Positions 1-7,415 of a stretch of DNA of 64,000 nucleotides are shown here, in pieces; within the stretch, counting starts at the first letter, position 1; every line of letters begins with the position of its first letter. The DNA comes from Rhodovulum marinum (lineage in GTDB: Bacteria; Pseudomonadota; Alphaproteobacteria; Rhodobacterales; Rhodobacteraceae): assembly GCF_004343075.1 (NCBI RefSeq), contig NZ_SLXP01000008.1, positions 62,001-126,000 of the forward strand, in the 5' to 3' direction. Below the pieces are notes generated by a model. The model was not told the origin of the DNA. It saw only the letters and a program-made list of their open reading frames with translations, and searched no databases. A program made the position numbers and the translations under genes.

Positions 1-1
1 G

Positions 2-292
2 CTGCACGCCATCGCGATGAACGCCTACCACCCGCGCAACCCGATCCTGAACTGGCTGTTCGGGCGGCGGCGCATCCGCGCGCAGACCGCCGTCTACGGC
101 AGCTATGCCGACCGGCTGCGCCTGCGCTGGGTGGCGGGCGATGAACGCCACCATTTCCGCCTGCAACTGCGTTCCAACGCCGATTACGGCGCGTGCAAGC
201 GCATCCGCTATTACCTGACCCGGCTGTGGTTCGATACCCGGATGGAGGGCGCGCGCAGCCCCCGCACCGACCTTGACGAGGGCCTGCTGTGA
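2..292 (+). CDS. C-terminal fragment of an eCIS-locus protein, 5' end outside window
   Basis: The reading frame is open from the first bases of the window, so the gene starts upstream and only about the last 96 codons are seen. The fragment is rich in Arg and Tyr (NPILNWLFGRRRIRAQ; KRIRYYLTRLWFD). I do not recognise the family. Its TGA overlaps the GTG start of the next gene (GTGA), which implies translational coupling with the baseplate-like gene downstream. A structural or baseplate component of the same contractile injection system is likely from context only. An internal ATG at 17 exists but is not needed, because the frame continues upstream of it. Confidence 0.6.
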   Translation: MHAIAMNAYHPRNPILNWLFGRRRIRAQTAVYGSYADRLRLRWVAGDERHHFRLQLRSNADYGACKRIRYYLTRLWFDTRMEGARSPRTDLDEGLL

Positions 293-1947
293 CCGACCCG
301 ACCCCGCCCGATTTCGCCCCCCTGCGCGAACGCGGCATCCGCGCCGCCCAGGACGCCTCGGGCGAGGTCTGGACCGATTACAACCTGCACGACCCCGGCG
401 TGACGCTGCTGGAACAGACCTGCTTCGCGCTGACCGAGGTCGGTTATCGCAACGCCCACCCGGTGCGCGACCTGCTGACCGGGCCGGACGACACGCTCGA
501 CCACGACGCCGCCGGTCTGTTCGACCCGGCCCGGATGCTGCCCACCGCGCCGGTGACCGAACAGGACCTCGCCGCCGCGATCACCCGGTCCGACCGCATC
601 GCTTGCGCCGTGGTGCTGCGCAGCGGCCACAAGGGGCTGTACGAGGTGCGGGTGATCCCCGAACCCGACCCGAACGATCCCGACCCCGACGCCGCCGACG
701 CCGCCGCCCTGGCCGAGGCGACGCGCATCTTCCGCGAGAACCGGCCGCTCTGCTGCGATCTGGATGCGGTGCGGGTCAGCCGCCGCCGCCCGGTGCGCCT
801 GACCGGCGAGGTGGCGATCACCCCCACCGCCGCGCCCGAACGCGTGGTCGCCGAGATCCTGTATCGCGTCGGCGCGCTGCTGCGCGGCCAGGCCGATCCC
901 GCTGGCGACGACCGGAAAGGTCCGGCGCGACGGGCGGTGGCGCGGCTTCGACCGGCCGCCGGTCGACACGCTTTTACCGATGATCTACCGCACGCCCGGC
1001 GCACCACCGCCGCCGGTCCCGCGCCGCCCCACCGCCGGATCGAGGTGCTGGACCACCTGATCGCGCTGCAGGGCGAGGAAATGCCCGCCACCCGCCACAC
1101 CGGCCTGCACCATTACCGCAGCCGCGCCGAACGCGAACGGGCCGAGATCGACCGGCACATCACCTTCCTGCGCGCGCTGCCCGACGCCAATTTCGCCCGC
1201 AGCACCGCCCCCCATGGCACCCGCGCGGGCGGCTTCCTGGCCAAGCTGGCCCTCTTGGCCGACCTGCGGGTGGCGCAGGGCGGCGACCTGGCCGGGCCGA
1301 TGGCCGCCTTGGGCCTGGCGCTCGACCCCGACGCCTGCCCGCCCGACCCGGCGCTCGACCGCGCCGACCTGCCCGCTTCCGGCGATCCGATGGCCCTTCT
1401 GATGCCCCGCGACCCCACCGCGCCGCCGCTCGTGGACGAGGCGCTGCTGATCGCCTCGCCCTTCGTGGCGGAGGGCCGCATCGCGCCCGCGCTTTTCACC
1501 CGCGCCGCCGATCCCGCCGCCTATCTCGTGGCCCCCGACGGCGCGGGCGGGCACCGCGTGCTGTTCGACCCGGGCACGGGGCAGGGGCTGTATCCCTGCG
1601 GCCAGCTCCCCCGCCGGGCCGGGGCCGACCTGTTGGCCAACCGGTTGCGGAACGGCTGGCGCGCCCTGCACGAAAGGTGCGAGGGGCTTTATCTGGTCGA
1701 GGACATCCTGCTGCGCGCCCGCACCCAGGGGTTCGCCCCCCATGTCGCCGCCCTCGTGCTGACCGGCTGGACCGCCCGAACCGCGCGCCCCGATTTCCGC
1801 GCCCATGTCGAGGCGCTGGTCGCCCGCCTGTCCCCCGCCCATGTGCTGATCCGTCCGCTCTGGCTGGGGCTGGACCAGATGGCCCGTCTCGACCGCGCCG
1901 CCGCACGGCTCGACGCGCGCAACGTGGTCCGCGAGGCGCAGGCATGA
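289..1947 (+). CDS. eCIS baseplate-type protein (HDPGVTLLE family)
   Basis: 552 codons from a GTG start that overlaps the previous stop. The N-terminal third carries WTDYNLHDPGVTLLEQ, a hallmark of baseplate proteins in Afp/PVC-like extracellular contractile injection systems, where they help form the wedge-like baseplate. Further on, RIEVLDHLIALQGEE resembles the LDYLLALYGE segment of that family, and the C-terminus (SPAHVLIRPLWL) also fits. Between about 880 and 1035 the frame used here gives an unusually Arg/Pro/Ala-rich stretch, while the +1 frame reads RRDGRWRGFDRPPVDTLLP. A compensated pair of frameshifts is therefore possible, although the frame stays open. Its TGA overlaps the ATG of the next gene (ATGA). 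Confidence 0.65.
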   Translation: MTDPTPPDFAPLRERGIRAAQDASGEVWTDYNLHDPGVTLLEQTCFALTEVGYRNAHPVRDLLTGPDDTLDHDAAGLFDPARMLPTAPVTEQDLAAAITRSDRIACAVVLRSGHKGLYEVRVIPEPDPNDPDPDAADAAALAEATRIFRENRPLCCDLDAVRVSRRRPVRLTGEVAITPTAAPERVVAEILYRVGALLRGQADPAGDDRKGPARRAVARLRPAAGRHAFTDDLPHARRTTAAGPAPPHRRIEVLDHLIALQGEEMPATRHTGLHHYRSRAERERAEIDRHITFLRALPDANFARSTAPHGTRAGGFLAKLALLADLRVAQGGDLAGPMAALGLALDPDACPPDPALDRADLPASGDPMALLMPRDPTAPPLVDEALLIASPFVAEGRIAPALFTRAADPAAYLVAPDGAGGHRVLFDPGTGQGLYPCGQLPRRAGADLLANRLRNGWRALHERCEGLYLVEDILLRARTQGFAPHVAALVLTGWTARTARPDFRAHVEALVARLSPAHVLIRPLWLGLDQMARLDRAAARLDARNVVREAQA

Positions 1948-4151
1948 GCACGGCGCACCCGTCCCCCCGGCCCGTGGCGCCCGGCCCGCGCCACCGCATC
2001 GGCGAGGTCATCGCCGAGATCCACGTCGCCCGCCCGCGCGGCCCGCTGTCTGCACCCGACCTGCTGCTTACCGCGCTTCGGCGCGAACTGTTGCCCGCGC
2101 TCGCCCCCTGCCTTGATGGCCCGCGCCTGGCCGGGCAGGCTGTGCAGGTCGACCGGCTGGAAATCGACCTGGGCGACTGGCCCGACGATCCCGACTGGGA
2201 CGCGGTGCGCGCGGCCTTCCGCGCCGCGCTCGAATCCGCGCTGGCCCCGTATCTGCACGCCCGTCCTCCGGACCTTCTGGCGGACCTGCCCGCGCGCCCC
2301 ATTGCCCCCGACGAACACCCCTCCGCCGCGCAACACCCGCTCGATCATGCCCGGACGGCCCCGGGCCAACCGCCCCCCGCCACCGCGGCCACCGATCCGG
2401 TGGCGCCGCCTCCGCCGCCCTTCACCGCGCCGAACCATGGCTTGCCCCCCGCGCCCTGACCGACGCGCTGCGCAAGGCCCTTCAGACCGACCCGGCGCTG
2501 GCCGCCGAAGTCTTCCCGGCCCGCGCCCAAACAGGCGAATTGGGCCGAAACAGAGACCAAACCGGCACAGATGCACAGGGGCCGGCCCCATCCCCGGACC
2601 CTGTTCCCGCCCTGGCCGAAGCACTGCGACGGGCCCTGCGAAACGACCCATCCCTTGCCACGGCACTGGCCCGAACGCGCGCGCCCCGCGAAGACAGGAC
2701 AGGCGCGCCCCCGTCCGAAACCCACGTCCTGACCCGGGCCCTGCGCGCAGCCCTGCGAAACGACCCCGACCTGGCCGTGGCGCTTGGGGTGGCGGACCTG
2801 GCCCGACAGGACACGCCCGATACCGTGCCGGGCGGCCGCCGTGCCGAGGCCGCCGAAACGGTGCACGATCCGGCCCTGCGCGCGGCGCTGGATGCGCTGA
2901 CGCGCGCCCTGTCCACCGCCCCGGAAAACCGCTTTCCACACGCCACCCGCGCGCTTCGCGTGGCGCTGGATGCCTTGCCCGCCGACGACCTGGCCCGGCT
3001 TGGAAAGCGGCTCTGTTTCGGCCCGTTATTGCCCCCGGACGGGCAAACCGGCCCAAGGATCGCCCGGCTTGCCCAGCTGCTTTCGGCCCCGCCGCTGACC
3101 GACACGGCGCGCGCCGCGCTGGCCGGCAACCTGTGGCGGCTGTTGCGCGCGGCCGGCCATGACGAAACCGCCGCGATCCGCGCGGCCCAGGCGATGACCG
3201 CCCGGCTGGCGGCCCGAACCAGCCCCGGCGCGGCACGGCGACCGCGCGCCCGAAACCGCCGCCGCCCGGCCGGGGCGCACCGCCCGCCAGCACCGGCGCG
3301 CTGGCCGCGATCACGCCCCTTCTGTCCGAGATGCTGCGCGCCGCCCCCGCCCCGGTGCCGCCCGACTGGCAGGCCGCGCTGGCGCTTCTGTGGGCGGCGC
3401 TGCCCGGCACGTCGCCGCAGGCCGCCACCCGCCCCGCCGACACGGCCGCACCGCCCCTTGCGCTGGCCGCGGCGGACCCGGCCTTCTGGCGGCTTTTGCT
3501 CGCGCAGGGGCTGGCCCCGCGCGGGCGCGGCTGGGCTATCCGCTGCCCGGCGTGCCGCCCGCGCTGCGCGTGGAAACACGCGCCGCGCTGGACCGGCTGC
3601 AGGGCACCCCCGCCGCGGACCCCACCCCCGCGGCCCCGACGGGCGACACCCTGGCCGAACCGACCACACGGGCCGGGCTGGTGCTGTTTCACCCCTTCCT
3701 CGTGCTGCTGTTCCAACGGCTCGACCTGCTGGACGACGCCCGCCGCATCCGCCCCGGGGCCCGGCTGACCGCCCGCGCCGCACTGCGCGCCCTGGCGGAC
3801 CCGATGCCCGGCCCCGCGCGCCTTACCGATCCGATCGAACGCGTCCTTCTGGGCCTGCCGCGCGGCTGGGTGCATCCGGGCACGCCCGACCCGGCGCCGC
3901 CCGCCCCCGACCTGACCGACAGCCTGACCCGCGCGGTGATCGACCGCTGGGGCGCGCTGGGCCAGACCGCGCCCGAGGGGTTGCGCGAAACCTTCGTGCG
4001 GCGCACCGGAACGCTGACCGAAACCGATACCGGCCCGCGCCTGGCCGTCGATCCCGGCCCCTTCGACATGCTGCTTGACCGCCTGCCCTGGGGCCTGTCC
4101 ACCGTGGCGCTGCCCTGGATGGCACTGCCCCTGACGGTGGAGTGGAGGTAA
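1944..4151 (+). pseudogene. Contractile injection system tape-measure-type protein, three frameshifts
   Basis: The N-terminus (1944 to about 2400, frame 3) has HRIGEVIAEIHV and QVDRLEIDLGDW, as in the CIS tape measure family. The C-terminus (about 3530-4151, frame 3 again) has LVLFHPFLVLLFQRLDLL and PFDMLLDRLPWGLSTVALPW, also typical. Between them the coding signal passes to frame 2 (about 2400-3235) and frame 1 (about 3240-3525). Each step equals a one-base loss, so the frame returns to phase after three. Frame 2 holds three copies of an ALxxALRxALxxDPxLA motif. The total is about 736 codon equivalents. Without repair, translation from 1944 stops at 2459. In intact systems the protein sets sheath and tube length. 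ATGA overlap upstream; the next gene starts 3 bases after the stop. Confidence 0.75.
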
Positions 4152-4154
4152 CCG

Positions 4155-5377
4155 ATGGCCGACACCGCCCGGCCCCTGGCCGGCCCCGACACGACACCAC
4201 ACGCCAAGGCCATCGCCGCCGAACTGGCCTGGCTGGCCGAGGTGATCGAGGCCCGGCTGAAACATTTCTTCGAGGGCCGCGCGACCCCCTTCGCGCCGCC
4301 CCCCGCGCCGCGCCCCGACCCCGTTTCCGCGCTGGGGCGGCTGATCCTGGCGCTGGCCATGGCGCCCCATGTGAATTCGGCGATCCTCGACCCGTTCTTC
4401 GTGCGCAACACCGCCATCGCCCGGGTGTTCTCGCAATTCGGCGGGGTCCATGCCGAGGCGGGCGCGTTCCAGCCCACCGCCGAGACCGCGCTGTTCCTGC
4501 TGGCCGGTGCCGATACCGCCGCGCGCATCGCCGCCATGGCGCTGTTCGACCCCGACCACCCCCTGCGCCGGCTGGCGGGCGTCACCCCGGGCGGCCCGCA
4601 GGCCCAGGCGCTGACCATGCCCGTGCACCGGGTGATCGCGCTGTGCGAGGGGCGCCCGCCACGGTCCGACCTGTCCCCCGGCTTCCCGGCGCAGCGGCTG
4701 AACACGCGCCTGACCTGGGGCGACTGGGGGCTTGCCCGCCATGTCGGCCACGGGTTCAAGGCGCTGTTCTACGGCCCCCCGGCACCGGCAAGACGCTGAC
4801 CGCGGCCCTTCTGGGCCAGCGCACGGGGCTGGATGTCTAGCGGATCGACCTGTCGATGGTGGTCTCGAAATATATCGGCGAGACCGAGAAGAACCTCGGT
4901 CTGGTGTTCGACATTGCGGCCGAGCGCGAATGGATCCTGTTCTTCGACGAGGCCGACGCGCTGTTCGGCACGCGCACGGCGGCGACGAACGCCCATGACC
5001 GCTATGCCAACCAGGAAGTGTCCTACCTGCTGCAACGGATCGAGGATTGCCGCAGCCTGATGATCCTCGCCACCAACCTGCGCAGCAATATCGACGACGC
5101 CTTCTTCCGCCGGTTCCAGATGGCCATCGGCTTCGCCCGCCCCGACGCGGCCCAGCGCGAGCGGATCTGGCGCGGGCTGCTGGCGGACGTGCCGCTGGCC
5201 GGCGATGTCGATATCGCGGACCTTGCCCGCCGCCACGACCTTGTCGGCGGGTCGATCACCAATGTCGCGCGCCACGCCGCGATCACCGCGATGCGCCGCG
5301 GCGCCGACCGCGTGGGCACGGACGACCTGCACCAGGCCGTCGCCCGCGAGCTGCGCAAGGAGGGGCGGACCACATGA
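4155..5377 (+). pseudogene. eCIS AAA+ ATPase, broken by a frameshift in Walker A and an in-frame TAG
   Basis: The ATPase of eCIS loci (Afp15-like), thought to act in particle assembly. The N-terminal helical domain has FFVRNTAIARVFSQFGGVHAEA and FQPTAETALFLLAG. Frame 3 runs to FYGPP at 4780, where a C run has six instead of the seven bases needed for FYGPPGTGKT. The signal continues in frame 2 through GTGKTLTAALLGQRTGLDV, then a TAG (4838-4840) where the family has Tyr (V-Y-RIDLS), then SKYIGETEKNL, Walker B ILFFDEADALFG, sensor 1 (MILATN) and an arginine region (FFRRFQ), to a TGA at 5377. As it stands the protein would end at 4799 without a nucleotide-binding site. A downstream ATG at 4856 could make a 173-residue piece without Walker A. 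Confidence 0.8.
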
Positions 5378-7415
5378 CCCCAACCAGGACCCTCGCCCGC
5401 CTGTGCCTTGCCCTGCTGCTGGCGCTGATCCTGCCCCTGGCGGGCGCGGGCCGCGCGGCGGCCGATTGCGCCCAACTGCTTTCCACCCCGGCCCAGCCAC
5501 CCGGCTATGACGTGGCGCTGGTGCAGGCCGGGCTGCGCACCGCGCTGCGCGACGACAACAGGCGGCTGAGCGACGCGCTGATCGGCAGCTATACCCGCGA
5601 TGCGTTGGAAAAACTATGCCGCGGCGTGCCGCGCGCGGGGTCGGTACCCGACACGCTGGCCACGCTGGAACTGCCCGTTGCCTATGGCCGGCTGACCGCG
5701 CTTTTGCCCGACTGGTCGGCGCGGTTGCTGGCCCCCGGTTTCACTCAGGCGCTGGCCGCCGACCGCACCGCCCCGCTGCGCCTTGCCGCCACGCCCGAAA
5801 TGGCGGCCGCCGTGCGGGACGAACCCCGCGTCGAACCGGCCGAGGACGCCCCGCCAGAACAGCCCCAGCCGCCGCAACTGGGCGTGACCGACGCCACCGC
5901 CCAGGCCGTGCTGGACACGATCACGACCAAGGCGTTCAAGGACACGCTGTACGAAAAACTGGCCACCCGCGCCTCCAACGCCGAACTGATAAAGGGCGAG
6001 GTGCGCGCCCTTCTGAACCCGCTGGTCGAGGACGAGGTGCGCCGCATCGGCGGCACCCAGATGACCACCACCTCGACCGCGATCCGCGAAACCTGGTCCC
6101 TGACCCCGCCGCTGGAAGATGCCGTCGCCCAGATCGCCCGGATCGGCCCGCTGGGCGAAGATCCGACCGCCGCCGACCTGCAAACCCGGCTGACCGCGCT
6201 GGTCGGCGTCGAATACCCCACCCACCAACTGTTCCAGGCCGCGCGGCGCACCCTGCCGCCGCCCCCGGCCAGCCCGCCGGGGCCTCGCCGCGCCCATCGC
6301 CGGCGATTGCGGCTGCGTCGCCGACCGGGTCTATCCCGGCACGACCGATGTCTACGGCTTCTACCCGTTCAGGCTGGCGCCCCCCGCACGGAAACCGGGC
6401 GCCGACCCTGCGGCCCCGGACGCCGACCCGCCCGCCCCCGTCACCGTCGATTTCGCGCTGTTCAGCGATGTCGCCTTCTGCGGGCTGGAATTCGCGTTCC
6501 AGTACCCCGACCGGTCCACCGACGCGCGCAACCTGGGCCTCGTCAATCTCGGCTTCTGGACCGCGGTGCGGCGCGATTTCATCGCCTCGGCGCATCGCCA
6601 CCGCGCCCGCGCCGCGCGGCCCACCCTGTTCGACAGCATGCAACCCGACGGTATGACGCTGATCTTCTAGGATTACCGCGGCGACCCGGCGACCGACCCC
6701 AACGTGGGCAACCTGGTGAAACTGGTCACCCGGGTGCAGAACGCCATCGGCCCGCGCGGCCAGCGCGTCAATGTCGGCTTCGACTTCGATCTGGTCGCCG
6801 CCTCGGGGCGCGTTCCGGGGGCTGGAACGCTCCGAGGTGCTGCGCAGCATCATTCCCGTGGTGCCGCCGGGCGGGCATGAATTCGTGTTCTCCCGCCCCA
6901 GCGCGGGCGAGGCGCCCGATCCCGCGAACCGCAAGTTCAGCCAGTTCAGAGACGATATCATCTATTTCGAGGACGCGTTTTCCGGCGTCGGCTTCTGGCC
7001 CGTGCCGCGGCCCGACGCGCCCGAAACCGCCGCGCTGATGCAGGTCGTCACCGAGGAATGGGTCACCGGCATCCTGCCCGCGCCGCTCGCCGTGTTCGAG
7101 CCGCGCGCCCAGGCCGTCTGTTCCTGGGCCTGCCCGAACCGGCCCTACCTGGCGCTGTCGGCGATGGCGGCCTTCGCGGTGGTCGCGCTGTTGACCTGGC
7201 GGTCCTATTACAGCGGGCTCGTGGAAAAGATCGCCTTCCGCTGGAAAACCGTCTGGATCGGCACAGGCGGGGTGCTGGCGGCGTTGGCGCTGCTCAGCAC
7301 CTGCGACGCGGGCGCGACCTGGCCGCCGATCCTGCTGGGGCTGCTGGTGGCGCTTATGGCCGGGATCCTCGTCTTCGACGTGATCCAGCGCGCGCGGAAC
7401 GGGCCGAAACCCTGA
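5374..7415 (+). pseudogene. Unknown secreted/membrane protein of the eCIS locus, two frameshifts and one TAG
   Basis: I do not recognise the family. It starts with ATG overlapping the ATPase TGA. Frame 1 (5374 to about 6265) has a hydrophobic signal (LCLALLLALILPLAG, then AAADC, possibly a lipobox-like site) and a Leu/Ala-rich helical region. Frame 2 (about 6265-6800) continues with GDCGCVADRVYPGTTDVYGF and NLGFWTAVRRDFIA, interrupted by TAG at 6668-6670 (F-stop-DYRGD). Frame 3 (about 6805-7415) gives LERSEVLRSIIPVVPPGG, FRDDIIYFEDAFSGVGFWPV and three predicted membrane segments near the end. The second shift fits one extra G in the run at 6805-6808. Joining the three pieces as one gene is an inference from continuity. 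It converges with dxs, 3 bases away. Confidence 0.55.

Follow-up and report, generated by a model that had tools for sequence, protein, structure and literature searches.

Among solved structures, the best sequence matches for the Cis11, Cis12 and sheath proteins of the contractile injection system (CIS) treated here are the 'SalCis' structures (PDB 9rce and 9r9h, probably joined by 9r9a); no paper was found under the name SalCis. The Afp, PVC and AlgoCIS particles also have homologues, namely Afp11/12, Pvc11/12, Alg12 and the sheath proteins, with weaker sequence scores. The locus lies at the left edge of a 64,000-nucleotide stretch of Rhodovulum marinum DNA (the window; G000:C8:62001-126000, contig NZ_SLXP01000008.1 in a genome of 3.95 Mb and 38 contigs), and this left edge is very probably the second half of an extracellular CIS (eCIS) cluster that recently lost function in R. 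marinum.

The thylakoid-anchored CIS of Anabaena (PDB 7b5h) has relatives of Cis11 and Cis12, and passages of its description name All3316 as the Cis13 fibre (PMC8894136). The Anabaena particle is anchored by extensions of Cis12 and Cis13, whereas the R. marinum-type cluster has a separate membrane protein whose gene is coupled to an AAA+ gene. The Streptomyces CIS likewise has a separate membrane protein, CisA, which passages of its report describe as needed for function (PMC12237407). CisA is bitopic and of ~470 aa, and its likeness to the protein encoded here would be one of role. In the searched literature (titles, abstract starts and passages, mostly without subscription papers), there was no account of eCIS decay in Rhodobacterales, and none of the family of this membrane protein.

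Gene content of the cluster

Forty kilobases upstream of the window were fetched, and 20 open reading frames (ORFs) from the upstream and window parts were scanned with Pfam. An earlier note, made from the letters of the window, would have been contradicted by an absence of eCIS genes on that side, and they are present. Transporter-type genes are followed there by a Pvc16-type cap gene, a 201-aa gene without a family, and genes for the sheath, two gp19-type tubes, CIS_tube, a VgrG/GPD-like spike, PAAR and gp25, with the cap, sheath, tube, CIS_tube, spike, PAAR and gp25 genes all within ~12 kb of the window. After gp25 come a large gene without a Pfam match, a fibre candidate and the remaining window genes. 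Because core CIS genes lie directly upstream, the left edge of the window is read as the second half of an eCIS cluster. The orthologue of the large gene in R. steppense is a Cis11 relative (phmmer: PDB 9rce_A, E 2.5e-81; Pvc11 and Afp11 lower down).

Five plus-strand genes occupy the left edge, and their ORF coordinates fit the junctions already described for them: a GTGA overlap at 289, an ATGA overlap at 1944, a 3-base gap before 4155 and an ATGA overlap at 5374. The first, previously an "unknown C-terminal piece", is the 3' end (1..292) of an unbroken gene for the Cis13-like fibre candidate (whole gene C8:61432-62292, equal to L006:6432-7292; 286 aa), judged by orthologues, synteny and the lack of a frame change relative to R. 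steppense. The cis12 baseplate gene (289..1947) is open and encodes 552 aa, with ~180 internal residues gone and a short out-of-frame stretch around the gap; its A2 profile matches PDB 9rce_B 'SalCis12' at E 1.8e-77, and also Alg12, Afp12 and Pvc12. Next stand a cis14 tape-measure remnant, shortened and with broken frames (1944..4151; CIS_TMP PF19268, E 7.5e-42 in the C-terminal ORF 3390-4151), and a cis15 AAA+ ATPase remnant (4155..5377; AAA PF00004, E 5.4e-13 in the C-terminal ORF). These matches bear out the baseplate, tape-measure and AAA+ calls made from the letters. The last gene (5374..7415) is the remnant of an AAA-coupled membrane-protein gene (~1100 aa in relatives), recognized from the aligner output, the family alignment A3 and the hydrophobic segments of relatives; it was earlier labelled an "unknown secreted/membrane protein" and can now be placed in a conserved family of CIS-associated membrane proteins whose genes adjoin the AAA+ gene.

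Sheath, tube, spike and gp25 families occur in eCIS, phage tails and type VI secretion systems (T6SS) alike, and to that extent the genes could be read as a prophage tail or a T6SS. The CIS_TMP, CIS_tube and Pvc16_N families and the Cis11 and Cis12 relatives are instead of eCIS type, and among the 20 scanned ORFs no capsid, portal or terminase family was found, nor any family beyond the shared tail families pointing to phage or T6SS. Passages of an eCIS survey ask for at least ten clustered core genes and at least one of Afp12, 13, 14 and 16, and report Afp8 and Afp11 in 98.7% of surveyed loci (PMC8213781). The R. marinum cluster has 12 core genes or remnants (cap, sheath, two tubes, CIS_tube, spike, PAAR, gp25, Cis11, Cis12, tape measure and AAA+), as assigned in this analysis and not with the hidden Markov models of that survey. 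It encodes Cis12, CIS_TMP (Afp14 type) and Pvc16_N (Afp16 type), as well as a spike with Phage_base_V and Phage_GPD in the place of Afp8 and, in that of Afp11, the Cis11 relative, broken in R. marinum. A prophage tail or T6SS has next to no probability. As for a functional eCIS, the baseplate, tape-measure and ATPase frames are not full-length and open.

Lesions and their explanation

R. steppense DSM 21153 (NZ_SLVM01000005.1, G011:C5) carries an open orthologous cluster with identical gene order from cap to last gene and ~38-86% protein identity by matching piece. Its proteins served as the reference for lesions, which were located with tblastn pieces and a frame-aware aligner. Among the cluster genes, which are open in R. 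steppense, lesions in R. marinum are confined to gp25, Cis11, Cis12, the tape measure, AAA+ and the last gene; cap, sheath, both tubes, CIS_tube, spike, PAAR and the fibre candidate are unbroken within open ORFs. The gp25 gene has one frame change and Cis11 three, with 1272 of 1423 residues aligning. In Cis12, where 550 of 771 residues align, the aligner flags three frame changes despite the open ORF, two around the gap and one near the 3' end. The tape measure has three frame changes (689 of 1119 residues align). AAA+ has one counted frame change at the P-loop (Walker A) region, an in-frame stop after it (one TAG within the match at C8:66775-67356) and internal deletions (420 of 465). The last gene (675 of 1100) shows two frame changes, one stop and nine deletions of at least 5 residues, keeping both ends and missing more than 400 residues in between. 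Several lesions are thus internal deletions, some of more than 50 residues. A second flagged AAA+ frame change, at the gene start, was not counted, nor were aligner breaks in the 5'-terminal parts of the cap and sheath genes and of the permease-type genes next to them; these breaks lie upstream of or at the start of unbroken tblastn matches, and the R. steppense ORFs are probably called too long.

The GC frame plot shows a strong coding signal that switches frame inside the third, fourth and fifth window genes, in agreement with the comparison and with the earlier report of shifts and stops in three of the five. That report proved incomplete in extent: Cis12 is affected as well, and the damage extends beyond the left edge to Cis11, gp25 and, ahead of the cap gene, a gene of transporter type. 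This last, a solute-binding-protein gene, has two of three tested deleted segments without a counterpart in the corresponding stretch of genome G006. Third-position GC stays at ~0.9 across most of the damaged part despite the changes of frame; this part is still coding-like in composition, so any decay would be young.

Control genes argue for damage restricted to one locus. Twelve flanking ORFs and 13 ORFs of a second CIS in the same genome were matched to R. steppense, and 9 and 12 of these were run through the aligner; 20 of the 21 have neither frame change nor stop, and the one flagged (L121:480-1484) is broken only in a doubtful ~36-residue 5' ORF extension unmatched by tblastn. Left out were L120:9351-9998 and L122:1-549, at stretch ends, and the mutually overlapping L121:3696-4343 and L121:4262-6793, the latter matched in two overlapping frames. 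The earlier claim that more than 40 downstream genes are intact is borne out to the extent of the tested flanking genes (9 of 12 matched ORFs aligned). Small in-frame gaps are no proof of damage by themselves, since the cap gene of the second CIS, a clean control, contains four of them (5-26 residues).

Open copies are the rule in related genomes. In G006, all five genes tested (Cis11, Cis12, tape measure, AAA+ and last gene) are open. Among 22 named loci, Rhodobacteraceae or nearly so (L036-L056 and L071, of 78 fetched as the best of 497 candidates, some of them short), Cis12 is a single ORF of 710-860 residues in all 22, which rejects natural length variation as an account of the R. marinum Cis12; for much of the tape measure such variation is possible, as matching ORFs run from 660 to 1773. 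AAA+ and the last gene each have matches in 19 of the 22 loci; AAA+ is a single ORF of 445-496 in 18 of them, and in 17 the last gene is an ORF of 1051-1134, one of which runs to a contig edge (L045). Exceptions are Cis11 of L037 and the fibre gene of L055, each showing a second frame. In L043:9923-10861, a last-gene homologue stops after ~313 aa (a 314-aa gene), a possible second case of decay or a problem of metagenome-assembled genome (MAG) assembly. Cis12 of this type is present in 4 of 16 same-genus genomes and, with at most two candidates scored per genome, in at least 13 of 394 sampled genomes of the family, R. marinum included in both counts. A scan of viral_contigs with Cis12 gave 20 pattern stretches, none encoding a relative. 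The cap-sheath-tube-spike module lies on the opposite strand to the Cis11-to-last-gene module in G006 and G015 (L018, L020), while R. steppense and R. marinum have a single direction.

With clean controls, open copies in related genomes and internal deletions, the loss of function in one locus proposed by the earlier note is well founded, yet several observations weigh against it and could also come from a locus that is undamaged in the organism but wrongly sequenced or assembled across a stretch of very high GC. GC is higher in the broken half (mean 0.734 versus 0.675, with 300-bp windows up to 0.83), and the assembly is a draft of 38 contigs. Lineage changes in the broken genes number 195 in R. 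marinum and 181 in R. steppense, against 122 and 135 in the unbroken genes (Fisher P 0.29; outgroups G006 and G015; PAAR, gp25 and the tape measure gave 0 sites for lack of usable outgroup positions). Many indels with few substitutions are also the pattern expected of assembly error, and the lack of a substitution excess in surviving residues indicates either very recent decay or error; long neutral decay is not supported by this relative-rate test. The tape-measure gene of G015 (contig C3; L020/L021) is also frame-changed relative to G006, while its Cis11, Cis12, AAA+ and last genes each keep one frame, a warning that the tape-measure gene may be prone to errors or breaks. Errors would nonetheless have to account for the deletions of more than 50 residues, and the lesions are not marked by homopolymers or by local GC: only 2 of 12 frame breaks have homopolymers (≥ 5) nearby, against a background of 0.119 (P 0.43), and GC is 0.732 at lesions and 0.734 around them, so homopolymer or GC error as the sole cause is not supported. 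In R. steppense, the segments deleted here have no extreme GC (0.556-0.778), and the second CIS, whose 300-bp windows reach 0.79 GC, is free of such damage, as are the tested flanking genes. Deleted segments tested from Cis11, AAA+ and the tape measure align in full in G006, and those of Cis12 and the last gene mostly do, placing the losses on the R. marinum lineage. An intact locus behind faulty sequence is, on this evidence, unlikely.

The distribution of lesions invites a further reading, a reduced but working system in which the unbroken cap-sheath-tube-spike-fibre module still serves some purpose and the rest is dispensable. All ~19 lesions, by our own grouping of the aligner output and for cluster genes only, fall within ~11.4 of 19.6 kb, an outcome with a chance of ~3e-5 under random placement, and the unbroken genes show no rate increase. 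The lesion-free half is lower in GC and may simply mutate less, however, and the decay is too recent for selection to show. No CIS is known to work without Cis11, Cis12 and the tape measure, and retention of a working half is very improbable.

Under recent loss of function of the whole cluster, the consequences would follow from the parts affected. Baseplate assembly would fail for want of an intact wedge of gp25, Cis11 and Cis12, and nothing would set tube length once the tape measure is gone. Maturation, docking and firing of the particle would be lost along with ATP binding by Cis15 and the membrane protein coupled to it. The cell could still produce the sheath, tube, spike, cap and fibre proteins, but non-functional tubes would be the most that these could form. 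Where relatives have open copies, the machine most probably works as other CIS do, with sheath contraction driving the tube and spike.

The membrane protein and the fibre candidate

Relatives of the last-gene protein form a conserved and little-described family of CIS-associated membrane proteins. The 16 aligned here (A3) are 31-54% identical to the R. steppense member, for which searches of Pfam, NCBIfam and PHROG gave no family at the thresholds used; Pfam gave no convincing family for any of the 16. Searched with the A3 profile, 53 of the best 78 named loci (L036-L113; of 497 candidates) contain a single matching ORF each, always on the plus strand. In 47 of these 53, this ORF directly follows the end of a P-loop ORF, and the two overlap by 4 bp in 35 of the 47. 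By a simple hydropathy threshold and counting by eye, three hydrophobic segments lie near the C-terminus in 14 of the 16 relatives and two in the other 2, and 11 of the 16 also have one among their first 50 residues.

The predicted model (pLDDT 80.8) contains a GH18-like barrel. The canonical GH18 catalytic motif, DxxDxDxE, is not kept: the consensus at the corresponding position, placed by eye, is DGVTLIFExY, which lacks the middle acids and has a variable Glu across the 16 sequences. A pattern near the N-terminus of the family looks peptidoglycan-binding-like; Pfam at E up to 1 gave no support for such a resemblance. The A3 profile matches PDB 9r9a_B, an uncharacterized protein, at E 4.2e-18; judging by its code, 9r9a probably comes from the same project as the SalCis structures, and its protein has 864 aa against ~1100 aa for the last-gene family, the likeness being one of sequence profile only.

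The last-gene protein would then be an envelope protein working with the ATPase at the producer's membrane, in a role perhaps comparable to that of CisA in Streptomyces or to membrane anchoring in Anabaena. In relatives, an exported, membrane-held, GH18-like envelope protein would act beside the AAA+ ATPase at the envelope of the producing cell. A wider proposal, tentative and possible rather than probable, is that CIS clusters of this clade, which occur in many proteobacteria, have next to the AAA+ gene, and usually overlapping it, a gene for an exported membrane-held protein with a catalytically dead GH18 (chitinase-like) fold that docks the particle at the producer's envelope or lets it through, and that R. 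marinum has lost this docking and baseplate half while the sheath-tube-spike half is still open.

The fibre candidate is matched between Cis11 and Cis12 in all 22 loci (partially in L050 and L055), and 19 sequences form its A4 alignment. Over its first ~45 residues it has a weak similarity to All3316 (E 0.32), and elsewhere a similarity to bd2133 (8ond, E 6e-4). The predicted model is poor (pLDDT 60), and the best Foldseek rows are phage tail-fibre-type proteins, all weak (best E 3.4e-3), so that the candidate is given no fold. A Cis13-like assignment is made with moderate confidence.

Neighbouring genes and a second CIS

The flanks of the R. marinum cluster match R. steppense contigs C2, C17 and C3, not the cluster contig C5, so the two clusters are not in the same place. 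Solute-binding-protein and permease-type genes (L005:4826-7767) adjoin the cap gene on its upstream side; ORF L005:4826-6958 covers two separate R. steppense ORFs and has methyltransferase-type and solute-binding-protein matches. About 16 kb upstream of the window, an eCIS_core match (C8:45977-46174) falls within a 206-aa ORF (L005:3671-4291), which may be shortened in R. marinum, as its G006 homologue has 358 aa. The sheath protein (745 aa, L005:9040-11277) shows Cadherin_3, CshA_repeat and Big_9 matches N-terminal to the sheath domains; phage sheath proteins with extra Ig-like domains are mentioned in passages of a published report (PMC9230969).

The second CIS is of another type (G000:C4, L007/L008, ~C4:205,100-229,000), is undamaged in the 12 genes tested, and includes an eCIS_core protein, an AAA protein with a winged helix, a Pvc16-type cap and a DUF6519/beta-helix protein. 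Orthologues of its AAA+ gene in G011, G012 and G014 are 79% identical; with G011 being R. steppense, both R. marinum and R. steppense carry two CIS. Elsewhere in the R. marinum genome there is neither a further Cis12 match nor a second CIS_TMP gene, both CIS_TMP matches being pieces of one broken gene.

Decay as an event is ordinary. The value of this locus lies in a natural knockout, made up of fresh eCIS decay, an undamaged second CIS and an open same-genus orthologue, which suggests that one of the two CIS is dispensable in this lineage, and in the exposure of a conserved AAA-coupled membrane protein. This CIS gene, coupled to an AAA+ gene and without a Pfam or NCBIfam model found here, turns the contact between a particle and its producer's membrane into a question that gene deletion can test.

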